33,932 nt of DNA, from NCBI GenBank assembly GCA_024684465.1, contig JAIKWW010000050.1, positions 1 to 33,932 of the forward strand, in the 5' to 3' direction. Under the pieces are notes generated by a model, which saw only the letters and a list, made by a program, of their open reading frames with translations, did no database searches and was not told the DNA's origin. Below are positions 16,469-30,358 of the stretch, in pieces; the first letter of the stretch is position 1; each line of letters opens with the position of its first letter. The DNA comes from Clostridia bacterium. Lineage in GTDB: Bacteria > Bacillota > Clostridia > Peptostreptococcales > Anaerovoracaceae. A program made the position numbers and the translations under genes.

Positions 16469-17395
16469 CTACAGCGCTTTTACAGCCTTTACAATATCCG
16501 CTGCAGTTATGTTGTACTCTGCCATGAGTTCAGCAGGCTTTCCCGACTGACCGAATCTGTCCTGAACGCCCACCATCTTCATCTTTACAGGCATCTCCTG
16601 AGCAACCACTTCAGCAACTGCACTGCCGAGTCCTCCTATCACGGAGTGTTCCTCCGCCGTGACGATGGCTCCGGTTTCCTTTGCGGCTTTGATGATGATC
16701 TCCCTGTCGATCGGCTTTATTGTGTGCATGTCGATAACGCGGACTTCAACGCCTTCCTTCGCAAGTTCCTCCGCAGCCAGCAGCGCTTCATTGACCATGA
16801 TGCCCGTGGCGATGACTGTGCAGTCCTTTCCGTCTCTGACACAGTTTCCCTTGCCGAGCTGTATATCTGCATCTTCGCCGTAGATGACAGGCACGCTGTA
16901 TCTGCCGAGGCGTACATAAGTCGGATCCTCCGTCTCTGCAACCTGTGCCAGCAGCTTCTTTGTGGATACCGCATCTGCAGGGTTGACAACGACCATGCCC
17001 GGGATGACTCTCATGAGTGCCAGGTCTTCTATGCACTGATGGCTGGCGCCGTCTTCGCCCACAGTCACACCTGCATGAGTTGCACAGATCTTAACTCCGA
17101 TGTGAGGATATCCCATGGAATTTCTGATAACCTCATAAGCTCTGCCGGCAGCGAACATCGCAAAAGTGCTGACGAACACCTTCTTGCCGGAAAGAGCCAG
17201 GCCTGCAGCCATGCCCATCATGTTATTCTCCGCGATTCCCGCATTGAAGAATCTCTCCGGATATACCTTCTTGAACTCAGCAGTCATTGTGGACTTTGAC
17301 AGATCTGCGTCCATTACCACCATTTCCGGATACTTTGCGCCCAGTTCAGCCAGGGCTTCTCCGTAGGCCTTACGGGTTGCGATCTTATCTGCCAT
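16469..17395 (-). CDS. Transketolase, C-terminal subunit
   Basis: A 308-residue half transketolase carrying the pyrimidine-binding and C-terminal domains. Visible marks are the catalytic-Glu segment FFNAGIAENNMMGMAAGLA, the TFAMFAAGRAYEVIRN stretch, HAGVTVGEDGASHQCIEDLALMR, and the C-domain ending DRFGQSGKPAELM. It joins with the N-terminal subunit to form the TPP enzyme that moves two-carbon units between sugar phosphates. An ATG at 17401 is 3 nt from GGAGG, while the ATG at 17395 is 9 nt away and overlaps the partner's stop as TAATG; the latter is preferred. No terminator is seen between it and the potD promoter, so readthrough into potD is possible. Confidence 0.92.
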   Translation of the reverse strand: MADKIATRKAYGEALAELGAKYPEMVVMDADLSKSTMTAEFKKVYPERFFNAGIAENNMMGMAAGLALSGKKVFVSTFAMFAAGRAYEVIRNSMGYPHIGVKICATHAGVTVGEDGASHQCIEDLALMRVIPGMVVVNPADAVSTKKLLAQVAETEDPTYVRLGRYSVPVIYGEDADIQLGKGNCVRDGKDCTVIATGIMVNEALLAAEELAKEGVEVRVIDMHTIKPIDREIIIKAAKETGAIVTAEEHSVIGGLGSAVAEVVAQEMPVKMKMVGVQDRFGQSGKPAELMAEYNITAADIVKAVKAL

Positions 17396-18219
17396 TACCA
17401 TTCACCTCCAAGTTCTTTCACTGCCTGTTCAGCCTGCTCGTCGTCCGGAGCCTTGCCGTGCCATCCTGCCTGATCCTCCATGAAGGAAACGCCCTTGCCC
17501 TTCACTGTCTTTGCGATGATCACGTGAGGCTTGCCCGGATTTGATTCCGCATGTCTCACTGCAGCTTCGATCTGATCGAAGTCATGGCCGTCTATGCTCT
17601 GTACGTCCCAGCCGAAGGATCTGAATTTCTCATCGATCGGAGTGACGGTGATAACATCCTCGTTCTTTCCGTCTATCTGCAGACCGTTCCAGTCCACAAA
17701 TGCCACGATACTGTCAAGGCCGTAGTGACCTGCAGACATTGCAGCCTCCCAGATCAGCCCCTCCTGAAGTTCGCCGTCTCCCAGCACAGCAAAGACGCGG
17801 GAGTCCGAACCGTCGATCTTGTTTGCGAGAGCCATGCCCACAGCCACAGAAAAGCCCTGGCCCAGTGAGCCGGTGGACATTTCGATTCCCGGAATGTTCT
17901 TTCTGTCCGGATGTCCCTGAAGTATCGCACCGATGTGACGAAGCTTCAGCAGTTCCTCTTTAGGAAAGAATCCCTTTTCCGCCAGCGCTGCGTAAACAGC
18001 AGGGGCAGCGTGACCCTTAGAAAGAACCAGACGATCTCTTCCCTCCATCTGAGGATTCTTCGGATCCACCTTCATTTCGCTGAAATACAGGTAAGTGATA
18101 ATGTCAGCTGCTGACAGTGAGCCGCCCGGATGTCCGGATGCGGCTGCATGAACCGCCTTTATGATGTCCACGCGGACATCTGCAGCCTTTGCCTCCAGCA
18201 TTTTCTTGTCGATTGACAT
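17395..18219 (-). CDS. Transketolase, N-terminal (TPP diphosphate-binding) subunit
   Basis: A 274-residue half transketolase. The donor-site His lies in AASGHPGGSLSAADI, SKGHAAPAVYAAL follows, and the TPP/Mg motif runs from GDGELQEG to FVDWNGLQ. The end has KTVKGKGVSFMED and a conserved His-Gly (WHGKAP). Split transketolases are common in Clostridia and archaea. The frame is open to 18249, but the ATG at 18219 has GGAGG 5 nt upstream and gives the usual N-terminus, so it is used. It is the first gene of the block and is coupled to the C-terminal half by a 1-nt overlap. It could be the general pentose phosphate enzyme or a copy dedicated to the neighbouring importer; the sequence does not decide. 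Confidence 0.92.
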   Translation of the reverse strand: MSIDKKMLEAKAADVRVDIIKAVHAAASGHPGGSLSAADIITYLYFSEMKVDPKNPQMEGRDRLVLSKGHAAPAVYAALAEKGFFPKEELLKLRHIGAILQGHPDRKNIPGIEMSTGSLGQGFSVAVGMALANKIDGSDSRVFAVLGDGELQEGLIWEAAMSAGHYGLDSIVAFVDWNGLQIDGKNEDVITVTPIDEKFRSFGWDVQSIDGHDFDQIEAAVRHAESNPGKPHVIIAKTVKGKGVSFMEDQAGWHGKAPDDEQAEQAVKELGGEW

Positions 18220-18258
18220 ATGCTCCTCCATTAGAATGAAATAATGCAAAAGTGTAAC

Positions 18259-18470: not shown

Positions 18471-19247
18471 TCAGTCCATGGTTATGCAACTTCGTATGGT
18501 TCCGATTTCCGTAACCGTCTCAGTCACCCTGGCGTGGATTCCGTACAGTTTTTCGATCAGTGACTCATCCAGCACTTTTTCGGGAGTGCCGTCCGCTATG
18601 ATCCTGCCGTTCTTCAAAGCCAGCACTTTATTGGCATACCTGAAGGAATGCTCCGGGTTGTGGGTGGACATGAGCACTGTGTAGCCTTTTTCCGCAAGCC
18701 TTCTGCAGAATTTCAGGACGTGGTGCTGGTTTCCGTAATCCAGGTTCGCTGTAGGTTCGTCCATTATCAGCGTTCCCGCATTCTGAGCCAGTGCCCTGGC
18801 TATCAGGACCAGCTGCCTCTCGCCGCCGGAGATCTGTGCCACGCCTCGATCAGCCTTGTCTTCTATTCCCAGCTCATGCATGGCATATCTGGCTGATTCG
18901 ATCTGCTTTTTCCCGGGCGACTCGGTCATACCCAGAGTTCCCGTAGTTCCCATGAGCACGGCGTCCATAACGGTGTAGTTGAAGGTGGGCTCAGAGGACT
19001 GGGGTATGTAAGCCACTCTGGATGCCAGGCACTTTCTGGACAGCGTCCTCACATCGGAGCCGTCTATATTCACATCCCCTCTGAACCCCTGCTGAAGTCC
19101 GAGAATGCAGCGGAATAGAGTACTTTTGCCGGCACCGTTGCAGCCCAGCACGGATACCAGTTCTCCCTTTTCCGCGCGGAAATCCACACCCTTCAGCACG
19201 TCATGTCCGCTGTAGGAGAATTTCAGGTTCTTAACTTCTATCGGCAT
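18471..19247 (-). CDS. ABC importer ATPase, FecE/FhuC/BtuD type
   Basis: A 258-residue ATPase of a type II importer for iron-siderophore, heme or cobalamin. Walker A GCNGAGKST, Q-loop in AYIPQSSEP, signature ISGGERQLVLIARAL, Walker B LIMDEPTANLD and the switch His in LMSTHNPEHSF are intact. The longer frame from 19298 lies inside the permease gene; the ATG at 19247 has GGAGG 8 nt upstream and is chosen, which leaves a 17-nt overlap with the permease gene. It is the last gene of the three-gene unit. The ligand cannot be told from the ATPase. Confidence 0.92.
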   Translation of the reverse strand: MPIEVKNLKFSYSGHDVLKGVDFRAEKGELVSVLGCNGAGKSTLFRCILGLQQGFRGDVNIDGSDVRTLSRKCLASRVAYIPQSSEPTFNYTVMDAVLMGTTGTLGMTESPGKKQIESARYAMHELGIEDKADRGVAQISGGERQLVLIARALAQNAGTLIMDEPTANLDYGNQHHVLKFCRRLAEKGYTVLMSTHNPEHSFRYANKVLALKNGRIIADGTPEKVLDESLIEKLYGIHARVTETVTEIGTIRSCITMD

Positions 19248-20319
19248 TTCGTTTACCTCCTCCCAGAAGTAAATATACGAATATGGGAGTTCCCACAAAA
19301 GCAGTCAGAATTCCCAGAGGAATCTCTGAGGTTGTTGTTATTCTCGAGATATCATCCACCGTCATCAGGAACGAAGCCCCGAAGAGCAGGCTTGACGGAA
19401 CCAGTATGCGATAATCGTACCCGAATATCATCCTGCAGAAATGTGGAATTACCAGACCCACCCAGCCGATCATTCCGGAAACTGAAACGCTGGCTGCAGT
19501 CAGCAGCGTGGCGCAGAACACCACCACGGCCCGGTACGACCGGGTATTGATTCCCATGGACTCCGCTTCATCCTCCCCGAGGGTGAGCAGATTCATGCGC
19601 CAGCGCATAGCCAGCAGCGGAACCGTCCCGATCATTACCGGAATAAGTACAAATCCCACATCCTGCATTTTGATGGAAGCCAGACTTCCCATGAGCCAGT
19701 AGGTTATGGCAGGCAGCTGATCCTGAGTATCCGCCACAAGTTTTACGAATGATGTTCCTGCGGAAAAAAGCGAGGATATCATCATTCCCGAAAGGATCAT
19801 GGCCAGAGTGTGTTCCGTTTTGGCAAGTCTGCTGATGAAATATGCCAGAAAAACTGCAGCCAGACCGAAGGCGAACGCCGCTGCGGATATCACGAAATAT
19901 CCCATGCCCAGCAGAATGCTCAGCGCCGCGCCGAACCCGGCTCCGGTGGAAGCCCCCAGGATATCCGGAGAAACCATCGGATTCCGGAACATTCCCTGAT
20001 AGCTGACACCCGCCAGAGAAAGCGCCGCTCCGATGATCGCCGCAGCTGCGACTCTCGGCAACCTGATGGAAAACAGGACCGTTTCGGCACTTTCCGGCCA
20101 TGTCTGCGGCATCTCCGCAAAACGTGAAGCGAGCATGCGCCAGAAATCCTCCATGCTTATGACATATCTGCCCTGAGTGCACGAAACCGCAAAGATCAGC
20201 AGAAAAGCCAGAGCCAGTATTGCCATCTTCAAACCGGTATTGTTTTTTTTCTGTCGTTCATCCATAGTCTCTTTCATCTGCTGCCGGAGGACGCCTGCCC
20301 CCGGCCTCATAACTGTCAC
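19231..20319 (-). CDS. ABC importer permease, FecCD/BtuC type
   Basis: A 362-residue permease with about ten membrane helices, as in BtuC. Family motifs include RLPRVAAAAIIGAALSLAGVSYQGMFRNPMVSPDILGASTGAG, GMMISSLFSAGTSF and the coupling helix region GWVGLVIPHFCRMIFG, followed by EIPLGILTAFVGTPIFVYLL at the end. The GTG at 20319 overlaps the stop of the binding-protein gene by 4 nt (GTGA); a later ATG at 20310 or 20262 is possible because no strong ribosome site is seen. The stop region overlaps the ATPase gene. Metal chelate or corrinoid import is the family role. Confidence 0.92.
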   Translation of the reverse strand: MTVMRPGAGVLRQQMKETMDERQKKNNTGLKMAILALAFLLIFAVSCTQGRYVISMEDFWRMLASRFAEMPQTWPESAETVLFSIRLPRVAAAAIIGAALSLAGVSYQGMFRNPMVSPDILGASTGAGFGAALSILLGMGYFVISAAAFAFGLAAVFLAYFISRLAKTEHTLAMILSGMMISSLFSAGTSFVKLVADTQDQLPAITYWLMGSLASIKMQDVGFVLIPVMIGTVPLLAMRWRMNLLTLGEDEAESMGINTRSYRAVVVFCATLLTAASVSVSGMIGWVGLVIPHFCRMIFGYDYRILVPSSLLFGASFLMTVDDISRITTTSEIPLGILTAFVGTPIFVYLLLGGGKRNADRS

Positions 20320-21428
20320 GCTGCTCTGCCGGTCTTTTCAGCCTTTAGCGTTGAATTTGCCAACATGTCAGCAACCTCATCGTCACTGAGCTCATAATGC
20401 CAGAAAAGGCTGTAGTACTCCTTAGCCTTCTCCGCCACATCGTAATCGTTGTAAACATCCGGATAAACAAGCTGTCCCAGCCACCATACGCCAAGCACGC
20501 GATTAATGGAAGGAGGCGCTGCCATCCAGCTGTACGGCTTCCACGGGATCTGATAGTAAGCACCTGCTTTCACAGCCTTGAGGTTTGCCCATTCCCCCTG
20601 TGCCAGAGTGTCGAATGGTCCCTCCTGATCCAGGATTATCACGTCCGGATCAAATTCATACACCTTTTCCAGATCCACTACAGTACCGCCGCCCTTGTCG
20701 GTAACTTCATCAGTTTTAATGGCATTTTCCGCCCCGATCATATCGATGACACTCGCCTGGGAAGAGCCCTCTGCATTGCAGGCCAGGCCCGTTGCAGATG
20801 TTCCGAACATGACTGTTTTCACATCAGCTTCCTTGATCTCGGCGGACTTTTCCTCTGCGTACTTCAGTGTTTCATCCACGAAGGAAGCCAGCTTTTCAGC
20901 CTCGTCCTTACGGTTCAGCAGACTGCCCAGAGTTCTGTATGCATCAGGCATCTTGTCCATCTCCGCATTTATGTACACTGTAGGTATTCCGGTCTGTTCC
21001 TGTATCATGTCCATATCCTCTTTGATGCCGTCCTTCTGGTCCCCCAGGTCGATGATGATCTGCGGATCTGCAGCAACCAGCGCTTCCATGTTCAGATTCG
21101 CCTTCTTCCCATAGAACTGACCGAACACCGGCAATTTCCCGAAACTTTCAGGGAAGTACGCAACCTGATCCTCTCCCGGAGCATTTGCCAGTCCCACCAG
21201 AAGATCCGGATCCAGGGTGTACAGTATCATCTGAGCCACAGCCCCGCTGGCTGCAACTCTTGTAATGTCCGCAGGGACTTCAACGGTTCTGCCCACGCTG
21301 TCAGTGAACTCAACCGTTCCATTTTCCTGTGTCTGATCCGCAGAAGCAGCCTTCTGACTTGTTCCGCAACCGGCAAAGCATGCCAGAGTCAGGCACAGTG
21401 CCGTAACTGCTGCGATTACTTTCCTCAT
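20316..21428 (-). CDS. ABC importer substrate-binding lipoprotein (TroA-like fold, metal chelate type)
   Basis: A 370-residue lipoprotein with a signal peptide and a lipobox FAGC at Cys21, then the family opening FTDSVGRTVEVPADITRVAAS. NLNMEALVAADPQIIIDLG and YEFDPDVIILD mark the two lobes joined by one long helix. Late in the protein, PWKPYSWMAAPPSINRVLGVWWLGQLVYPDVY resembles the HemV-2-like branch of this fold. An iron chelate, heme or a metal oxyanion is likely; the sequence alone cannot choose. The frame opens at 21470, but the ATG at 21428 is 9 nt from a GAGAG site and gives a clean signal peptide. It is the first gene of the importer unit. Confidence 0.9.
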   Translation of the reverse strand: MRKVIAAVTALCLTLACFAGCGTSQKAASADQTQENGTVEFTDSVGRTVEVPADITRVAASGAVAQMILYTLDPDLLVGLANAPGEDQVAYFPESFGKLPVFGQFYGKKANLNMEALVAADPQIIIDLGDQKDGIKEDMDMIQEQTGIPTVYINAEMDKMPDAYRTLGSLLNRKDEAEKLASFVDETLKYAEEKSAEIKEADVKTVMFGTSATGLACNAEGSSQASVIDMIGAENAIKTDEVTDKGGGTVVDLEKVYEFDPDVIILDQEGPFDTLAQGEWANLKAVKAGAYYQIPWKPYSWMAAPPSINRVLGVWWLGQLVYPDVYNDYDVAEKAKEYYSLFWHYELSDDEVADMLANSTLKAEKTGRAA

Positions 21429-21553
21429 TTTGCTCATCTCTCTTTCTAAAAACAAGAATAACAAATTCAAATAAGCAAGTTTGATTAAATTTAGATTAAT
21501 ACCAGCCTCAGCTCTTTGTTTTTGTCCAATACTCTTTATTACGCCTTAGTCCA

Positions 21554-21587: not shown

Positions 21588-21651
21588 CACCACATAAGAA
21601 TACCACAAGTCTGTATTTTCGGTCAAGACACCCGGAGCAATTGAACGCAGC

Positions 21652-21685
21652 AAAAAACCGGAGCCGGGTGAACCCGATTCCGGTT
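21652..21685 (-). terminator. Terminator of the cell-surface gene block
   Basis: Stem AACCGGA/TCCGGTT (21656-21662 with 21679-21685) continues after a 2-nt bulge into CGGG/CCCG with a 4-nt loop, followed by a T-run on the minus strand. In the 69 nt between it and the tagA stop only a GATATTAATATC palindrome (21699-21710) stands out. Confidence 0.85.
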
Positions 21686-21754
21686 GTGTTTTAATCACGA
21701 TATTAATATCAACAGCCTGCATCCCGTTCCCTCCGGGAATGATCAGACCTGCAG

Positions 21755-22492
21755 CTATTTTCTTCTGCCGCCGGCTATGACTCTCAGCATGAACACCGGC
21801 AGTGCCGACATTCTCTTGATCCTGGTGGGTTCCTGGATAAGCCTGTAGAGCCACTCCAGGCCGTGCTTCTGATAGAACTCCGGCGCCCTCTTCAGCGTCC
21901 CAGCCCACACGTCCAGACTTCCGCCAACACCGATAGCTCCGTGAACCCTGAGTTCATTTCTGTGATCGTAGATGAACTTCTCCTGTTTCGGAGCGCCCAG
22001 AGCAACACACAGAAAATCCGCGCCGCTGTCGTTGATTTCCCCGACAATGCCCGCTTCTTCCTCAGGTTTGAAGTATCCGTCGTGGCATCCGGCAACCTTC
22101 AGCTGAGGATACTTCTTACGGATATTTTCCGCAGCCTTCTCCGCCACGCCGGGCTTGCTCCCGAAAAAGTATATTGATTTTCCGTTCTTTTCCAGATAAG
22201 CGACGATGGTCTCGAGAAAATCGATACCTGTAACTCTTTCCTTCAGCGGACGTCCGATGATCTTCGATGCATAGACAAGACCGATCCCGTCCGGTATGAT
22301 AATGTCCGCCTTTCCGATGAGACTGCAGAGTTCCGGCTCCTTCGACGCCCTCTGGACGATCTCGGAATTCGGAGTGACTATCATCGTCACCCCCGGCTCC
22401 GGAAAGGACCTTTCAAATTTTTCAACAGCCCGGTCTCTGTCGATGAAGTCCACCGGCACTCCCAGGATCTCAATTCTCTCGTTATCTGCCAT
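21755..22492 (-). CDS. tagA: WecG/TagA/CpsF family glycosyltransferase
   Basis: A 245-residue GT26 enzyme that adds ManNAc, or a related amino sugar, to GlcNAc-diphospho-undecaprenol at the inner face of the membrane, an early step of wall polymer synthesis. The TPNSE motif (Thr40) and IIIPDGIG with the likely catalytic Asp68 match TagA, as do YFFGSKPGV and LGAPKQEKFI. The C-terminus ends with the basic tail RIKRMSALPVFMLRVIAGGRRK that helps bind membrane. AGAGG is 7 nt from the ATG at 22492, so that start is preferred over the ATG at 22498. It follows csaB by about 20 nt and ends the block. Confidence 0.92.
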   Translation of the reverse strand: MADNERIEILGVPVDFIDRDRAVEKFERSFPEPGVTMIVTPNSEIVQRASKEPELCSLIGKADIIIPDGIGLVYASKIIGRPLKERVTGIDFLETIVAYLEKNGKSIYFFGSKPGVAEKAAENIRKKYPQLKVAGCHDGYFKPEEEAGIVGEINDSGADFLCVALGAPKQEKFIYDHRNELRVHGAIGVGGSLDVWAGTLKRAPEFYQKHGLEWLYRLIQEPTRIKRMSALPVFMLRVIAGGRRK

Positions 22493-22513
22493 TAGCATTC
22501 CTCTTCTTGTATA

Positions 22514-23608
22514 TCATTCATCCAACAGCCGGTTTATGAGTTCTTCATTGAGACTCAGCGTCCTGCTGAGCCGCTCCCTTCCGGCCTTGATCTTCTCAAT
22601 ATATGATTCTCTGTTGTTCATGATCCGTTCGAACTCTTCCACCAGGAACTCCGCCTCGAAATCGTAGACGGAGCTCAGCGCCTTGAGCCCCAGTCCCTTC
22701 ATGAACTGATTTATCTTCGGATCGTAGGAAACACCTATCATCGGCACCCCCATGGTAGCAGCATGGATAAGGGAATGAAGCCTCACACCCACGATGTAAT
22801 CCATATTGCCGATGACTGACATCATCTCCTCAGTGCTGAATTTTCTGTCCAGTGCCACAGCCATGTCACCGAGACATCCCGCAAGCTGTCTGGTTGCCGG
22901 ACTGTCCTCCGTGTAATGGAACGGGATCAGCACGATGCGAACCCCGAACTTCTCGTGCATCATCCTTGCGGCGTTTGCCATTTCCTGTTTCAGTTCCGTG
23001 TCAGCGGTACCCTTGATGGCGAATCCCACCACAGGTGTCTTCTCATCCATGTCCAGCCCCGCTTCCGCCAGAATCTCTCTGCCGGTCTCCAGCCCCGGAT
23101 TCTTCAGTTTCAGCACCGGATCCGCCGTGACGAACACGTGCTCCGCCGGGATCCCGTTCTTCCTGAGGAACTCACCGGACGCCTCGTCCCTGACAATTAT
23201 GTATTTCAGAGGCTTCAACACGCGGATAGTCCTGCGCCTGTTCTTCTCAGAGTTGATCGGTCCTATGCCCTGACTGTAGATGATGACTTTCTTTCCCAGC
23301 ATCTGCGCCATCTTTATGATCATCAGATAATAGATCACGCTCCTGCGGCTGGTCACGTCCTGCAGCAGGCTCCCGCCGCCGCTCACCAGCAGATCGCACC
23401 ACAGCAGCGCCTTCATGATCTGAAAAGGCTTCATCCTGTGGACCGCTTTTACTCCCAGCTGTGCCTTTGTGGCCTCAGGATCGTTGGAGAGCACCATTAT
23501 GTCGATGTCATCCACTCCGTTCCTGAGATTTCCCACCACCGCCTTCAGGATAGACTCGTCTCCGATGTTGTTGTAGCCGTAATATCCGGATATGACGATT
23601 TTACGCAT
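22514..23608 (-). CDS. csaB: Polysaccharide pyruvyl transferase CsaB
   Basis: A 364-residue enzyme that puts a ketal pyruvate on a wall polysaccharide, using phosphoenolpyruvate. Pyruvylated ManNAc is the group that SLH domains bind. The sequence starts ISGYYGYNNIGDESILKAVV, has LLVSGGGSLLQDVTSRRSVIYY near residue 75, IIYSQGIGPI, and the C-terminal VGVRLHSLIHAATMGVPMIGVSYDPKI that is typical of the family. It overlaps the upstream DUF5693 gene by 8 nt. Since an SLH protein is made from the same block, this enzyme very likely prepares that protein's anchor. Confidence 0.93.
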   Translation of the reverse strand: MRKIVISGYYGYNNIGDESILKAVVGNLRNGVDDIDIMVLSNDPEATKAQLGVKAVHRMKPFQIMKALLWCDLLVSGGGSLLQDVTSRRSVIYYLMIIKMAQMLGKKVIIYSQGIGPINSEKNRRRTIRVLKPLKYIIVRDEASGEFLRKNGIPAEHVFVTADPVLKLKNPGLETGREILAEAGLDMDEKTPVVGFAIKGTADTELKQEMANAARMMHEKFGVRIVLIPFHYTEDSPATRQLAGCLGDMAVALDRKFSTEEMMSVIGNMDYIVGVRLHSLIHAATMGVPMIGVSYDPKINQFMKGLGLKALSSVYDFEAEFLVEEFERIMNNRESYIEKIKAGRERLSRTLSLNEELINRLLDE

Positions 23609-25823
23609 CTGCAGATCCGCCCTCTCCTGCCGCAGCAGACTCTGCGCCGTCCCGGTTTCCGGGATCCTTTGCCATGCCCGTGACCAGCTTCGCAGCTCTG
23701 TCCAGGATCAGCAGGCAAACCAGACCGATCACCAGACCGAACAGCAGTGAGAAACCGGTCCTCGCAACGCCCAGTTCAAGCGGCGAACGTATATGCATGA
23801 AGGTGTTTATCACGGATGTGAATCCGATGGCAGCCGCCGTGCCGGACACAAATGAAAGCACCCGGTACCCCTTCACCATGGTGTATATGAAGAGCATCAC
23901 GCAAGGGAACGCCGCCAGGAATTCCTTTGTTCTCGGTCTTGCGTAGAGATAATTCTCCAGGAAGTTCCTCATCAGGAGCTCCAGGCTGGAAGCTTCCACA
24001 TCCGTCTCGTTTCCGGTTCTTGCCAGATAGATATATCCCACGACAGCCATAACGCCCAGAAGCCCGATGACCCAGACTTCGATCTTCGCCCTGAGAAGCG
24101 ACCTGACCTCACCTGCTGTGAGAGTCGTGATCTTCTTGTCCCCCCAGAGATAGCTGTAGTACACGAAGAACATCAGCATGAAGAACAGGATGACCGCAAC
24201 CTGTGCGAACTTGACGCCCCTGAAGATATCCAGTTCCAGCATGAAATTGGTGCTGGAGAGAGCGGAAGTCATGAGGAAAGCTGTCGCCAGTCCCGAAACT
24301 GTCGTAACGATGAGAGCAATAATGCTTCGCGGCAGGATCCGGCCCACCGGCGCGTCCTGTCCCAGTTCATCCCTGCATTCGACCGCATATCTCACAAACC
24401 ATATCACTATGAGGCATGCCACAAAGATCGACACGGCCAGAGCTGTGATCAGTGTCGCCAGGTTCGGCGCCACCACGAAGGCTCCCAGCACGCAGATCGC
24501 GCCTGCTCCGAAGAGTCCGTATCTCCACTTTCTCGATTTCACAGGGAAAACAGTGCAGAAGCAGATCACAGCAGCAGCCACAGCTGCCAGAGCAACAAGG
24601 ATCCTCACTGCAAGAGGAACGAAGAACACCTTCATCACAGATGCGTCACCCACAGTGAATCCGTGGGATGCAAATCTGCTGTTCAGTCCTTCGAACATCT
24701 CTCTGTACTCATCAGCATCGGTTATATAAGCGTGGTCATTGTCCTTCTCCTTCATAGGCTTGAAGTAGACAAGGCGCACATTTCTCTCGATCACAGGGCG
24801 GAACAGTGAATTTTCGATCTCCTGGAAACCGTCATAACCGTAGTACTCGTAGCGGTACTGTATGTAATTCCAGACGCTGAACACTCTGACTACATTGTAG
24901 TCACAGGCTTCGATAACCTTGTCCAGACCGTCCGGATCTATGTTCTGTCTCTGGTTGTTGTTTTCCACCACGCCGATGATCACGTTATTTTCATTGATAT
25001 AATTCGACAGGAACTCTGTGTCGTCATCATATCCCGGCACAACGTCACTGGCCAGGATCATGTACTGAGGAGCTCCGCCCAGCTGAACTTCGTACTGTTC
25101 CGTGACATCCTTCACAAACTTTGTGTCGTTCCAGCCCTCGTATGCCAGAGTTCTCGGCACCACTGTGATGCCGGCGTCCTCCACCATCTTCACCTTTTCA
25201 GGCAGAAGGCCCAGATTAATGTACATTATCTTGGATCCTGCAACATCTACGATGTTCTTGAATCCGTCGTCATCAGCTTCGTTGATCTTGTAAGATTCCC
25301 GGTACAGAGTGTCGGATACCTGACCGTTTACGAAAACATAGCCCCCTGTCTCCTGAGGTATGCATACCGAGCGGTCGCTGTCGAAACGTTCCGTGAAGGC
25401 TCTGCTTACGAAATCGTACATCTCGTCATTGTCGATCTTGATGATCACGTCATAATCATCAGTGGATTCTCTGTCGATCACATCCAGGACCGCCTGAGGA
25501 TACTCGTCCCTCCATGCAGCGTCCTTTTCCACGTCGCAGAGCATCTCAGCTTCCACGCCGCGGTTTTCCTCTGCGAGAGACAGAAGTGTCTCCTCCTGGA
25601 GTCCGGTCTTTGTCAGGCCCATGTCCTTGAATTCACTGAGCCACCAAGAGATATCGTGGTCCGACTGGGTCGCCAGATCCACCATTTCATTGTAATCATA
25701 TACATAGTCCACCGTCTTGGCGCCTGCTTCGATATTCCAGCGGATTCCGCAGACCGCCAGGCCGGCAGCCAGCGCAATTCCGATCACGCCAAAGAGCAGT
25801 TTGTTTTCCCTGAGAAACGTCAT
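23601..25823 (-). CDS. DUF5693 family polytopic membrane protein
   Basis: A 740-residue membrane protein. One N-terminal helix (about residues 8-26) is followed by a large outer domain to about residue 390, with features such as VVPRTLAYEGWND, then roughly ten membrane helices to the end and a short Gly/Ala-rich tail. This matches DUF5693, found beside csaB in many Clostridia. Its activity is unknown. The outer part could handle a polymer or sugar-phosphate while the helix bundle exports or polymerises it; this is inference. The frame is open to 25877, but the ATG at 25823 follows the murJ stop by 1 nt and fits the membrane topology. Confidence 0.82.
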   Translation of the reverse strand: MTFLRENKLLFGVIGIALAAGLAVCGIRWNIEAGAKTVDYVYDYNEMVDLATQSDHDISWWLSEFKDMGLTKTGLQEETLLSLAEENRGVEAEMLCDVEKDAAWRDEYPQAVLDVIDRESTDDYDVIIKIDNDEMYDFVSRAFTERFDSDRSVCIPQETGGYVFVNGQVSDTLYRESYKINEADDDGFKNIVDVAGSKIMYINLGLLPEKVKMVEDAGITVVPRTLAYEGWNDTKFVKDVTEQYEVQLGGAPQYMILASDVVPGYDDDTEFLSNYINENNVIIGVVENNNQRQNIDPDGLDKVIEACDYNVVRVFSVWNYIQYRYEYYGYDGFQEIENSLFRPVIERNVRLVYFKPMKEKDNDHAYITDADEYREMFEGLNSRFASHGFTVGDASVMKVFFVPLAVRILVALAAVAAAVICFCTVFPVKSRKWRYGLFGAGAICVLGAFVVAPNLATLITALAVSIFVACLIVIWFVRYAVECRDELGQDAPVGRILPRSIIALIVTTVSGLATAFLMTSALSSTNFMLELDIFRGVKFAQVAVILFFMLMFFVYYSYLWGDKKITTLTAGEVRSLLRAKIEVWVIGLLGVMAVVGYIYLARTGNETDVEASSLELLMRNFLENYLYARPRTKEFLAAFPCVMLFIYTMVKGYRVLSFVSGTAAAIGFTSVINTFMHIRSPLELGVARTGFSLLFGLVIGLVCLLILDRAAKLVTGMAKDPGNRDGAESAAAGEGGSADA

Positions 25824-25824
25824 C

Positions 25825-27444
25825 TTATTCCAATTCCTCCTTTGATCCTCCGCCCCTGCGCAGAAGCCCGGTCTCATCCAGCTTCAGGGCAATGGTGATA
25901 GCAAAATACACTATTACGCCGACTACAGTCGGAACTAAAAGTACGATCCACTTGAACATCGGTCCAGTCCATACCGATTCCAGGATGCTGACCGTCCCGC
26001 GGACTGCGACAGCCATTACTGCTGCGGCAGCCGCCATTTTTATCACATCCAGCAGGAACTTCTTCGATATGAAGCCCTCGCCCCGCTTTTCCAGCACGAG
26101 CCACAGAACCAGCGCGTTAACGGTGCTGACTACGGCGGATATGACTGCCAGTCCCGATACCTTGAACTGTTCGGCGAACAGCAGGCACAGGACGAAGTTT
26201 ATGATAATGGAGAGCGCCCCTGCGATGAAAGGCGTCTTTCCGTCCAGTTTTGCGAAATAAACCTTGTTCAGGATGTTCTGTCCTGCATAGCCGATCATTC
26301 CCAGTGAAGTGAACAGCAGCGCTCTGCCTGTGATGTCCACGTCGGAAGTGACGAACTCGCCGCCTCCGTAGATCAGGTCCACCAGCTCCCTGGACAGGGA
26401 CATTACTCCCGCCATCATGGGGATCACAAAGAACAGCGAAGCGTGCATGGTCGTGCGCAGCGTGTCGCTGAACTCGTCCTTTGCGTCGGACACCTGAAGT
26501 CTGGACAGACGCGGGAATATTACATTTGCAACGGACAGGATGAACACTCCTATGATGGTGAGATACAGGTTCATGCTGTATTCCACTGCGGATACTCCCG
26601 ATCCGCCGTACATGTGGGAGGCGAATCTGGTATTGATCAGCAGCGACAGAGGCTGTACCCAGGTGCTTATCATGACAGGCACCATGAGAGTCAGAACCTT
26701 CTTTATGTTTTCGTTCTTTATGTCAAAGGAAGGCCTGTATCTGAAGCCTTTCTTTTTCAGACTCGGTATCTGCACCAGCGCCTGCATCGCCCATCCCAGG
26801 ACGAAGGCCACGGCCAGGCCGTAGATGCCGAATCTTCCGTTCAGAAAATAGTAGTAAATGATGATGACCAGGTTCGCCAGAACGCTGATGGCTGCCGGGA
26901 TGTTGAATTCATCAAAGGACTGCAGGATCCCCACGAAGGCGTAGGCGATGCCTGTGAAGAACATGGTAGGAAACATCATTCGTGTGAGACTGATGCAGAG
27001 ATCCATGGTCTCCCGGTCGTATCCGTCTGCGATGAGCTGAACCAGCGGTCCGGAAAGAGCCACGCCCACTACGGTCAGAAGCAGCGTTCCCGCTCCCACC
27101 ACCGTGATGAAGTTGCCTCCGAATCTTATGGCCTCGTCCCTGCCCCGTTTCTTGAAAACCTCGTTGAAAACCGGGATGAAACTGGCGGAGATAGCCGAGG
27201 CGAACAGCATGTCGAAGAATACTCTCGGAAGTCTGGAGGCTGTGAGGAAGGCGTTTGCGTACATGCCGGTACCATAATTGATCGCCAGCAGCCTGTCCCT
27301 CCAAAGGCCCATGAACTTGCCCAGCAGCGTGATGATTATCACCATGCTGATGGCCTTCACCGCCGCCTTGCCCACGGCTTTGCCCATGCTTTCTCCTTCT
27401 TCATTTTCAGTTGTATTTGGGTTGTTTATCTGGTTTTCCTGCAT
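25825..27444 (-). CDS. murJ: MurJ/MviN-type lipid-linked oligosaccharide flippase
   Basis: A 539-residue MOP-superfamily transporter with about 14 helices. The MurJ start GLWRDRLLAINYGTGMYANAFLTASRLPRVFFDMLFASAISASFIPVF is clear, including the Arg residues that line the cavity in MurJ. It would flip lipid II or another undecaprenyl-linked saccharide. The ATG at 27444 has a distant AGGA; a second at 27387 has GGAG 5 nt upstream and would remove a 19-residue polar tail, so either may be used. Its place between the SLH protein gene and DUF5693-csaB-tagA suggests that it may serve the wall glycopolymer rather than, or as well as, peptidoglycan. Confidence 0.88.
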   Translation of the reverse strand: MQENQINNPNTTENEEGESMGKAVGKAAVKAISMVIIITLLGKFMGLWRDRLLAINYGTGMYANAFLTASRLPRVFFDMLFASAISASFIPVFNEVFKKRGRDEAIRFGGNFITVVGAGTLLLTVVGVALSGPLVQLIADGYDRETMDLCISLTRMMFPTMFFTGIAYAFVGILQSFDEFNIPAAISVLANLVIIIYYYFLNGRFGIYGLAVAFVLGWAMQALVQIPSLKKKGFRYRPSFDIKNENIKKVLTLMVPVMISTWVQPLSLLINTRFASHMYGGSGVSAVEYSMNLYLTIIGVFILSVANVIFPRLSRLQVSDAKDEFSDTLRTTMHASLFFVIPMMAGVMSLSRELVDLIYGGGEFVTSDVDITGRALLFTSLGMIGYAGQNILNKVYFAKLDGKTPFIAGALSIIINFVLCLLFAEQFKVSGLAVISAVVSTVNALVLWLVLEKRGEGFISKKFLLDVIKMAAAAAVMAVAVRGTVSILESVWTGPMFKWIVLLVPTVVGVIVYFAITIALKLDETGLLRRGGGSKEELE

Positions 27445-27468
27445 TATATCCCGTTTCCTGTATCCCTG

Positions 27469-29754
27469 TTACCCGATCGTCTTGCAGAGTATCTTCGCCA
27501 TCTCTGCTCTGGTCAGGTTGTTCTGAGGATGGATCATGCCCTCGGAACCGTTCACCAGTCCCATGGTCATGAGTGTCGCCGTAGGTGTCACAGCGTAGTC
27601 AGAAACAGCGCTGCTGTCGCTGAAGCCGCCGAAGGTCTCCATATCCACAGAATCAGTCAGTTTGTTCTGATTGCTCAGATATCTGTAAATGAATGTAAAT
27701 GCGTCTTCTCTGGTGAGAGATGCAAGAGGCGCGAAGTTCGTTCCGTCGCCCTTTGCGATGTTGTTTTCTGCCGCCCAGCCGATCGCTGAAGCGTAGTAGT
27801 CAGAAGCTCCCACGTCGGCAAAGCCGTCATCGGAAGGAGCCTGCGGCGAACCTGCAGCTCTGTAGAGCATCAGCACGAAGTCGCCTCTCTTTATATTGCT
27901 GGAAGGATAATACTTTCCTTCACTGCCTGTAACTATGCCCTTTTCATAGAGGGAAGTGATATAGGCTTCTGCCCAGTTCCCTACTATATCAGAAAAGACA
28001 GTTGCTGTCGATAAACTGATGGTCTTTGAAGTTCCGCCAAGGGAAACTGTCAGATAACCTGTTCCCACGGCATCTTCATTAATCGTGAGCTTTCCGTCAG
28101 ATGTGATCGTTCCGAATCCCTCTGACACAGAGTACCTGAAAAGATCTGCATCTGCGTGGAGATAGTTGCCGCCGTAGGATGCGGAAGCAGTAATCTGGAA
28201 TGTGTCGCCCGGCTCAACCTGCATGGAGGATTTTGCCGCGCTGCCGTTGACATACATGGTCACCAGTGACGCATTCTGCACCACGTGGAGTCTGCCGCTG
28301 CCGCTTGCTCCGGTGGATGGGGAACTGAGTCCGATCACCACGTCGCCGGTGGCATCAGGTGCTCTGTAGTAGCTGCCGTCCAGCTCTCCGCCGCCTGCAG
28401 TGACCGTCGGCGTCAGGTCAGATGGCACAGCCACCGGATAGTATCCGCTGTCAGTTGCAGTGTACTGCAGATTTATGCCGGAATTGGCATATACGTAGGC
28501 ATCTCTGTTGCTGAGATAGAGGTGCTGCGGGTTTCCGTCTGCAACAGTCTCCGCCACGAACACCACGTAAGTCGCGCAGCTTCTCATGGCCTTTCCTGAA
28601 GGGGAGTTCACCAGCGTAGTGGAGGAATCCCCAGGAAGCCTCAGTGCCATGGCTGTGGAACCGCCTCCGTCGAAATTGATGACATTGGTGCAGCCCATTG
28701 ACTTCAGTTCAGTGATGATCTGCCAGTAGGATACGCCGGCAGAGTAGCCGGACTGGCGTCCGTCCACCACCAGGTAAACCACCGTACCGTCAGGCTTTAT
28801 GCCCACGGCGGTTCTCGGCTGGCTTCCGCCCACGGACTTGTCCCAGGTGGATGAGTCAGTGACAGATCCGTCCCTCACAAGAACTGTACCGCCGCCCGTT
28901 GCCCAGGCTGCATTTGTGATAGCCGGGCTGTCACAGGTCGTGGTCAGGGATATCTGATCTCCTACGTGGAACTGCTCGAACTGCCACTGGAGATTTGAAG
29001 TATCATCCGCAGTCAGCACCATTTCTCCTTCGTTCAGTGCAACCGCACCTGTGCCCTGGTATACGTCATATACTTCCAGAGTCATGTTGCCGCTCACTGT
29101 CATGGACCCGCTGAGGATCCTCATCTTCACGAACCAGCCGGAAGATGAAGTCTTGGTATCGCTTCCGAAGTTGGAATCGTACAGACATATGCCGTTTCCG
29201 TTGACTCTCTGCTTGTTGAAATGGGTGAATGTGACAGTATTGCCGTTGCTCTCCACACCGTTGTTGGTCAGTGTAATATACACGTTGGCGCTGTCCACTA
29301 TCGTGGCATTTCCGTTGTAATCGAAAGCCACTGCCGGATATCCGTCCGGATTTGATTTATATACTCCGTTTTCCACATTGATTCCCAGAGGAATGCCCGT
29401 GGAAAAAGTGAAGAAGTCCGAGTTCACCGCGCCCAGTACGTTGTAGCCCTTGTTCCGTGCTACTTCCACAGCTTTCTGGATATTCATGCCTCCGTAGATA
29501 TCTCCTGATACCACGATTGGCTTGATCTGGGTGCCGGGCTGAGTTGTCAGCTGAAAAGCCGTCTCCGCTCCGTATGTGGAATTGCTGTAGGATCCCTTTG
29601 TATATGTAAAACCGTTGCCGTACTCAGTAATCTCCCTGTAGTTGAGTGTTCCCAGTCCGCCTTCGACAGCAAACGATGTCACCGGCGCCATGGTCATGAG
29701 AGCTGCCAGCGCTGCCGAAGTCAATTTCTTCGCTAAACCCCTTTTTAATTTCAT
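27469..29754 (-). CDS. SLH-anchored phosphodiester glycosidase (NAGPA family)
   Basis: A 761-residue exported protein. A signal peptide ends after SFA at about residue 29. The NAGPA-type catalytic domain spans about 60-400, with GAVNSDFF, RTAVGIKPDGTVVYLVVDGRQ and the signature NVINFDGGGSTAMAL. A beta-rich linker (about 400-585) with an Ig-like look follows. Three SLH repeats end the protein: FSDIVGNWAEAYI at about 588, FADVGASDYYASAI at about 645 and FSDSSAVSDYAV at about 710, each closing with an R-E/G-D or TRAE-type turn. The family cuts sugar-1-phosphodiesters. Anchored in the wall, it may trim phosphodiester-linked sugars on wall polymers. Downstream csaB would supply its pyruvylated anchor. 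Confidence 0.9.
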   Translation of the reverse strand: MKLKRGLAKKLTSAALAALMTMAPVTSFAVEGGLGTLNYREITEYGNGFTYTKGSYSNSTYGAETAFQLTTQPGTQIKPIVVSGDIYGGMNIQKAVEVARNKGYNVLGAVNSDFFTFSTGIPLGINVENGVYKSNPDGYPAVAFDYNGNATIVDSANVYITLTNNGVESNGNTVTFTHFNKQRVNGNGICLYDSNFGSDTKTSSSGWFVKMRILSGSMTVSGNMTLEVYDVYQGTGAVALNEGEMVLTADDTSNLQWQFEQFHVGDQISLTTTCDSPAITNAAWATGGGTVLVRDGSVTDSSTWDKSVGGSQPRTAVGIKPDGTVVYLVVDGRQSGYSAGVSYWQIITELKSMGCTNVINFDGGGSTAMALRLPGDSSTTLVNSPSGKAMRSCATYVVFVAETVADGNPQHLYLSNRDAYVYANSGINLQYTATDSGYYPVAVPSDLTPTVTAGGGELDGSYYRAPDATGDVVIGLSSPSTGASGSGRLHVVQNASLVTMYVNGSAAKSSMQVEPGDTFQITASASYGGNYLHADADLFRYSVSEGFGTITSDGKLTINEDAVGTGYLTVSLGGTSKTISLSTATVFSDIVGNWAEAYITSLYEKGIVTGSEGKYYPSSNIKRGDFVLMLYRAAGSPQAPSDDGFADVGASDYYASAIGWAAENNIAKGDGTNFAPLASLTREDAFTFIYRYLSNQNKLTDSVDMETFGGFSDSSAVSDYAVTPTATLMTMGLVNGSEGMIHPQNNLTRAEMAKILCKTIG

Positions 29755-29786
29755 TTTCGTTTTTCCAGTCTCCTTTACAATTTCAA

Positions 29787-29847
29787 TAAAAACGGGCAGC
29801 AGACCCGGTTCAGGTTTCCGTACCAGGCTGCCGCCCCGCTCTGCCCG
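29787..29847 (-). terminator. Possible terminator or attenuator between the small secreted protein and SLH genes
   Basis: CGGGCAG/CTGCCCG (29793-29799 with 29841-29847) encloses further G+C-rich pairing, including an alternative GGCAGC/GCTGCC stem, and is followed by a T-run on the minus strand. It may let only part of the transcription reach the SLH gene and beyond. Confidence 0.5.
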
Positions 29848-29884
29848 CTGCAGAGCATCATTAATTATCGTTTTATAACCGCCG

Positions 29885-30358
29885 CTACTTGAGTGTGTAG
29901 CCGCCTCTTACCATGAGATATGCTTCGGTGGACATTGCGAGACCTCTGCCGTCATTTCTCGGAACCAGAAGCAGATGATTCGTCTGGATCGCTTTGCCCA
30001 TTGTGAGGTCCTCGCCGGATGTCAGATCCGAAACTCCGTTTGATCCGTTGTCGATAGCCGTTGCCTCACCGGAACGAAGGATGATCTCAGTACCCTCTGC
30101 CCCCAGGATCTTCTGTCCCTGATCCAGATGCACCACACTGAAGGTGCCGGAACTTCCGGAAGTCGTGCCGCCTGAAGAGTAGCCCGCATTTGAAATGGCT
30201 GCGGAGATTGCCTGATCCACATAGCTCTTTGTGACAACCGGATCGCTGTCACTGCCCGGAGTTGCAGCGTAAACCGCGATTCCGCCGAGGGCCATGACCA
30301 GCACCGCCACAATGGCAGTTATCGTCTTGTGAGATTTTGCAAACTCGATCTTCTTCAT
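29885..30358 (-). CDS. Small secreted protein of unknown function
   Basis: A 157-residue exported protein. A basic N-terminus and one long hydrophobic segment end in VYAATPG, a signal peptidase-like site at about residue 31. Next comes SDPVVTKSYVDQAI, a short motif seen after the signal in various Clostridial surface proteins, then a Gly/Ser linker and a C-terminal domain with GQKILGAEGTEIILRSGEATAID, SDLTSGEDLTMG and HLLLVPRNDGRGL. No Cys, no metal site and no SLH repeat are seen. It is first in the cell-surface block and close behind the promoter. It may be a structural or sensing part of the envelope; no function is known to me. Confidence 0.8.
   Translation of the reverse strand: MKKIEFAKSHKTITAIVAVLVMALGGIAVYAATPGSDSDPVVTKSYVDQAISAAISNAGYSSGGTTSGSSGTFSVVHLDQGQKILGAEGTEIILRSGEATAIDNGSNGVSDLTSGEDLTMGKAIQTNHLLLVPRNDGRGLAMSTEAYLMVRGGYTLK

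Follow-up and report, generated by a model that had tools for sequence, protein, structure and literature searches.

Which proteins export the polymer that anchors SLH proteins, and which join its repeats into a chain, is the question raised by a csaB locus in a 33,932-nucleotide contig of a Clostridia bacterium (GenBank assembly GCA_024684465.1, contig JAIKWW010000050.1; the whole stretch is termed the window). In its genome bin, which measures 2.06 Mb and is 84% complete, the window is contig 91; the named relatives belong to the Anaerovoracaceae and other Peptostreptococcales or clostridial families. In Paenibacillus alvei, TagA and CsaB were shown to build a pyruvylated lipid-linked disaccharide, and the polymerization and ligation of the secondary cell wall polymer (SCWP) repeats were called remaining open questions (PMC6030368). 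The comparison of csaB loci described here points to DUF5693, an almost invariant partner of csaB that changes places with a Wzy_C module, as a candidate for the polymerase, and to a csaB-linked lineage of MurJ as the probable flippase.

The locus consists of five genes, all of them named in the original prediction, which lie on the minus strand nearly end to end (29754 to 21755):

27469-29754, minus strand: NAGPA (phosphodiester glycosidase) protein, secreted, 761 aa, with three C-terminal SLH domains (PF09992, 2e-27, and three SLH stretches over the cut-off)
25825-27444, minus strand: MurJ (MviN-type) of the csaB-locus lineage, 539 aa (TIGR01695, 365.9 bits against a cut-off of 235.55; trees)
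23601-25823, minus strand: DUF5693 membrane protein, 740 aa (PF18949, 1e-149)
22514-23608, minus strand: CsaB polysaccharide pyruvyltransferase, 364 aa (curated TIGR03609 cut-off of 213.1 passed with 288.8 bits)
21755-22498, minus strand: TagA/WecG/CpsF-family glycosyltransferase, 247 aa (PF03808, 1e-68, 230.6 bits; TIGR00696, 185.5 bits, cut-off 69)

The NAGPA-SLH and MurJ genes are 24 bp apart, MurJ and DUF5693 1 bp, and CsaB and TagA 15 bp, and DUF5693 overlaps CsaB by 8 bp. The DUF5693 frame probably starts at 25823, behind a GGAGG, and the ATG at 25877 given in the list of open reading frames is disfavored. All five genes very probably belong to the same anchor-polymer pathway.

DUF5693 as the partner of csaB

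DUF5693 is a core part of the csaB locus and an almost invariant partner of csaB. Among 148 genomes of relatives scored by the Pfam cut-off, 55 contain DUF5693, and csaB lies directly downstream in 54 of these, the exception being G128; the order DUF5693-csaB-tagA was constant in all 30 relatives' loci first read. A sample of the phylum yielded DUF5693 over the cut-off in 194 of 329 genomes, and a comparison of the two tables left four of the 194 without a CsaB match (G195, G234, G269 and the incomplete G465). Three of 14 control genomes exceeded the cut-off and one more gave a weak signal; these four are Thermus, Deinobacterium, Thermotoga and Bacteroides, the first three of which also match SLH and CsaB. 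No paper naming DUF5693 was found in the literature searched.

The csaB loci fall into two kinds (A DISPLACEMENT). Type I has the arrangement (157-aa family) - [MurJ] - DUF5693 - csaB - tagA, and type II the arrangement (157-aa family) - [NAGPA-SLH] - [MurJ] - GT4/DUF4330/Wzy_C module around csaB; no fewer than three kinds of gene make up this module. Searches within reach of csaB on either strand found Wzy_C and DUF4330 in none of the 104 type I loci, and Wzy_C was present in 28 of the 34 csaB loci without DUF5693 nearby; four of the six remaining loci lie on contigs under 7 kb, one is that of G128 and one is L068. GT4 glycosyltransferases occur at a single type I locus (1/104) vs 31 of the 34 loci without DUF5693, and their near-absence from type I is consistent with, but no proof of, a repeat of two sugars for which TagO and TagA suffice. 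Where DUF5693 is lacking in the window's family, many members (L065, L067, L205-L218 and others) have CsaB as the rear part of a fusion with a GT4 domain, the open frames measuring 730-800 aa. In G224, G225, G261, G351, G372, G396, G420 and G470, the open frame of CsaB measures 615-680 aa, a length that would accommodate a fusion of CsaB with TagA.

At least three switches between the two types are seen on a quick CsaB tree. A swap within one genus is seen in g96, in which a type I genome (G095, locus L064) and a type II genome (G117, locus L221) share 87% DNA identity through csaB-tagA-yitT-transketolase; the breakpoint is the start of csaB, beyond which DUF5693 is found in G095 and DUF4330 in G117, and a third member of the genus, G106, carries a Wzy_C-GT4-DUF4330 module at the same position. 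A 54-bp stretch directly upstream of csaB in G117 (L221 1022-1075) matches, at 89%, positions 16420-16473 of L064, which lie about 9 kb upstream of DUF5693 in G095, and this match is possibly a trace of a cassette swap.

Outer-face residues of DUF5693 and the csaB-linked MurJ lineage

A structural model of DUF5693 built from 55 homologues (mean predicted local distance difference test score, pLDDT, 89.7; predicted template modeling score 0.85) consists of one N-terminal membrane helix, an outer-face alpha/beta barrel (about 35-400) and about nine further membrane helices; the membrane part modeled alone reached a pLDDT of 87.9, and the topology was assigned from the model with the N-terminus inside. 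The modeled barrel resembles TIM-barrel and deacetylase-like enzymes (ChbG, the DUF610 protein BH1492 and a CE4 pseudoenzyme) with Z about 10 and deviations of 4-4.5 A, a likeness that says little about function. For the membrane part, VIA-align against the PDB gave a best Z of 6.7, to unrelated transporters, and comparison of DUF5693 sequence profiles with the PDB gave nothing credible. The invariant residues of the membrane part occupy 36 of 176 positions in the outer loops and outer helix halves vs 0 of 195 on the inner side (Fisher p about 3e-13); they include R28 and E32, in the outermost part of the first helix, and E615, R619, N620, R629, R631, N673, H677 and R688. Such a restriction to the outer side is the pattern of an enzyme working on the outer face, and it disfavors a transporter because kept residues would then be expected along a path through the membrane.

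The window MurJ belongs to a lineage associated with csaB. In a tree of MviN-type MurJs, the 21 from csaB loci stand on one side of a branch from the 20 of other loci and E. coli MurJ (support 96/91); the split was kept in an enlarged tree with 26 csaB-locus and 29 other sequences (support 78), in which the csaB side comprises two well supported groups. Because this lineage has members at loci of either type, MurJ is retained through the exchange of DUF5693 for Wzy_C. The MurJ gene instead follows csaB in Oscillospiraceae and others. A metagenome contig of Marinisporobacter (L139 6369-10160) has MurJ and DUF5693 as a single 1263-aa open frame; it was not used as an argument from fusion, since the junction is compatible with a Shine-Dalgarno sequence ahead of the ATG of DUF5693, and the frame could result from an error of a single base.

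The original prediction had proposed that the locus also carries the export step of the polymer, leaving open whether MurJ or DUF5693 is the transporter or the polymerase. Outer-side steps are very probably encoded by the locus along with the cytoplasmic ones, given the csaB lineage of MurJ on the tree and the near-constant pairing of DUF5693 with csaB; as to which protein does what, MurJ, which occurs with both modules, is favored as the flippase and DUF5693, which displaces the Wzy_C module and has its invariants facing outward, as the polymerase. The window MurJ is probably the flippase of the lipid-linked pyruvylated disaccharide of the anchor polymer, and for DUF5693 as the outer-face polymerase of that disaccharide, in place of Wzy, we put the chances at about even. 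More tentatively, DUF5693 may be the first family of a polysaccharide polymerase class not described before, in which a barrel on the outer face is joined to a membrane fold that has no clear known match; it would polymerize the pyruvylated SLH anchor of N-acetylmannosamine (ManNAc) and N-acetylglucosamine (GlcNAc) and repeatedly replace Wzy-type assembly at csaB loci across clostridia and relatives.

The proposed assembly pathway and its alternatives

In the pathway proposed here, TagO would start the chain as undecaprenyl diphosphate-GlcNAc, TagA would then add ManNAc, and CsaB would attach pyruvate to the ManNAc as a ketal; MurJ of the csaB lineage would flip the lipid-linked disaccharide, DUF5693 would join the disaccharides into polymer by means of its outer-face barrel and invariant outer-face residues, an LCP protein would attach the polymer to peptidoglycan, and SLH proteins, the NAGPA enzyme included, would bind the finished polymer. 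The original prediction had named TagA as the start of the polymer, a place that normally belongs to TagO, TagA being the second enzyme; it left unmentioned the TagO and ligase genes, which lie on other contigs. Genome-wide counts for the bin rest on family searches, which found one TagO/WecA-like transferase (contig C74), one LCP ligase, nearest to TagU (contig C65), two SpoVB/YtgP-type flippases, MATE proteins, and 64 SLH motifs on about 20 contigs. The bin thus has many SLH proteins to be anchored and at least one gene for each proposed step covered by these searches. A second DUF5693-csaB-tagA copy (L038, contig C36) was not accepted as a genuine second locus of the genome, as it shows 83.6% DNA identity and a higher G+C content; contig C36 is probably a co-binned contig from a related species.

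The chemistry assigned to TagA and CsaB rests on P. alvei. Pyruvylation of lipid-linked ManNAc-GlcNAc, shown for P. alvei CsaB only (PMC6030368), would by analogy be the reaction of the window CsaB. The window TagA is a member of the WecG/TagA/CpsF superfamily that falls short of the TarA/TagA equivalog NF041710 (195.9 bits, cut-off 350), and the addition of ManNAc to lipid-PP-GlcNAc is ascribed to it by analogy only.

Several observations weigh against these roles for DUF5693 and MurJ. The displacement of one module by the other shows substitution of the module, not which step DUF5693 performs, and in the wider locus L238 a Wzy-like gene is encoded on the other strand, some 3 kb away from DUF5693. 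The membrane part of DUF5693 has no clear fold match in the PDB (Foldseek gave none below E 0.38), profile comparison revealed no relation to Wzy or WaaL (Pfam Wzy_C was unmatched, and hhalign gave a probability of 0.2% against the type II Wzy_C proteins), and positive-inside charge bias supports the modeled topology only moderately. An MviN-type MurJ is missing from 32 of the 55 DUF5693-positive relatives, where another flippase must serve; the csaB-locus MurJ is not a general requirement of DUF5693 loci, and its export role does not extend to a general rule. At the positions of E. coli R18, R24, D39, R52, R270 and E273, which we take to be important for lipid II flipping, the window MurJ has K, R, N, F, N and L; most clostridial MviN-type MurJs at non-csaB loci deviate at these positions too and lack the cationic residues, which weakens their loss as a mark of a substrate other than lipid II.

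DUF5693 might be an outer-face enzyme of the pathway other than the polymerase: it might act as a ligase, control chain length or capping, or modify the polymer as a hydrolase or deacetylase with a catalytic barrel, polymerization being done otherwise. The matches of the barrel to deacetylase-like and TIM-barrel enzymes point in this direction, as do the invariant acidic and basic residues that the barrel has in addition to those of the membrane part. However, a Z of about 10 is common to many unrelated barrels, a ligase role would be redundant because separate LCP ligases exist (near DUF5693 in L232, L234 and L238), and type I loci yielded no further candidate for the polymerase. Such a role appears less likely than that of polymerase. 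A far smaller chance is given to DUF5693 as the transporter of the polymer, with the local MurJ serving as a lipid II flippase or in some other role. DUF5693 is indeed polytopic without a known fold, and something else must flip in the relatives that lack an MviN-type MurJ; however, the inner half of its membrane part has no invariant residue and no clear match to a transporter fold was found, and the retention of same-lineage MurJs at both DUF5693 and Wzy_C loci indicates that DUF5693 replaces something other than a flippase.

It is also improbable that MurJ is the housekeeping lipid II flippase, located here by chance, and that the anchor pathway comprises CsaB, TagA and DUF5693 only. Lipid II flippases of B. 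subtilis belong to the SpoVB/YtgP group. SpoVB has been treated as a sporulation homologue of MurJ (PMC12096821). The original prediction had turned on a second murJ in the genome: the window copy is the only MviN-type murJ found (84% complete genome), which favors a housekeeping function, but the two SpoVB/YtgP-type proteins of the genome, the absence of any MviN-type MurJ from about half of the relatives, and the separation of csaB-locus MurJs on the tree from the 29 MviN-type MurJs elsewhere argue against it.

Boundaries of the unit and comparison with known systems

The limits of the locus are marked by two predicted terminators, one of which separates it from a small upstream gene:

about 21655-21684, minus strand: predicted intrinsic terminator 3' of tagA (fold of 21645-21710, -20.6 kcal/mol, z -3.2, then a T run)
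about 29792-29836, minus strand: predicted intrinsic terminator separating the operon from the 157-aa gene (-45.5 kcal/mol and z -5.9 for the fold of 29786-29860; scan match 29807-29793)
29885-30358, minus strand: small secreted protein, 157 aa, of a conserved family without a name (no Pfam match)

Since strong terminator folds flank the 5' side of NAGPA and the 3' side of TagA, the transcription unit is likely 29754-21755. The terminator upstream of NAGPA therefore probably places the 157-aa gene (30358-29885) on another transcript, so that the span 21755-30358 of the original prediction contains the five-gene unit and, outside it, this gene. The 157-aa family is syntenic with both types of csaB locus, occurring at 69 of the 104 type I loci and at 16 of the 34 without DUF5693, and has the consensus PGSxxDPxVTKSYVD ... 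EGTEIILRSGEATAI ... NHLLLVPRxDGRG ... MVRGxYxI. No Rfam matches were found in the window. A split transketolase pair (16469-18249) follows directly after tagA (or yitT) in most relatives and is parted from tagA in the window by a FecCD-type ABC transporter cluster (18471-21470).

The NAGPA-SLH protein is expected to be anchored by the polymer of its own locus. SLH-bearing NAGPA enzymes adjoin csaB also in L065 and L067 and recur at both types of csaB locus. NAGPA acts on GlcNAc-1-phosphodiesters, and the bond between polymer and peptidoglycan is expected to be of the GlcNAc-1-phosphodiester kind; we would guess that the enzyme may act on such bonds, for example on the polymer's own linkage to peptidoglycan. 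The literature on NAGPA in cell walls yielded nothing directly useful. In L232, L234 and L238, DUF5693-csaB is adjoined by genes for an LCP ligase and TagO, with a NAGPA protein too in L232 and L234, and nearly the whole pathway is found in one place in these three loci.

The statement of the original prediction that one locus makes both an SLH protein and its wall anchor holds, and has a published precedent in P. alvei (PMC6030368, PMC6801904). There the locus reads orf1-csaB-tagA-tagO-slhA-spaA-orf7 (PMC6030368, PMC6801904), two of its open reading frames being without known function (PMC6801904). It resembles the window locus in having csaB followed by tagA, SLH genes in the locus and a gene without assigned function directly upstream of csaB, and differs in that the window locus has tagO elsewhere, an upstream SLH gene bearing a NAGPA enzyme, and MurJ within the unit. 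Relatives with genomes of 6-7 Mb have the order pgm-DUF5693-csaB-tagA-tagO-SLH-SLH (pgm read from sequence), so that, by gene order only, P. alvei orf1 is most likely DUF5693.

The SCWP system of B. anthracis shares the TagA-CsaB logic and SLH anchoring, and loss of CsaB there releases SLH proteins (PMC6801904, PMC6030368); with its Wzy-like WpaA and WpaB, a MATE-like flippase and a trisaccharide repeat that bears pyruvate at the end of the chain only (PMC6030368, PMC6801904), it resembles type II loci (Wzy_C, GT4), not the DUF5693 locus of the window. Deletion of the start gene tagO proved impossible both in B. anthracis and in P. alvei (PMC6801904, PMC6030368). The PSII (polysaccharide II) locus of C. 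difficile is likewise an anchor-polymer locus adjoining surface-protein genes, with an mviN/murJ homologue, but it belongs to another anchoring system, in which CWB2 motifs bind PSII, a hexaglycosyl phosphate polymer (PMC4973711). Wzx/Wzy-dependent assembly offers a parallel in its proposed lipid-linked repeat, flippase and outer-face polymerase, although DUF5693 is not detectably related to Wzy.

In many Gram-positive bacteria, SLH-anchoring polymers keep S-layers and further surface proteins in place. This kind of locus is already known from P. alvei; what is new here is the function proposed for DUF5693 and for the MurJ lineage linked to csaB. A near-universal partner of csaB that swaps with a Wzy module provides a concrete gene for the open question of polymerization, and the substrate predicted for DUF5693 was already made for the P. 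alvei work. Gene content would also predict two polymer chemistries: a disaccharide repeat, like that of P. alvei, where the locus has DUF5693, and a longer one, like that of B. anthracis, where it has Wzy_C.

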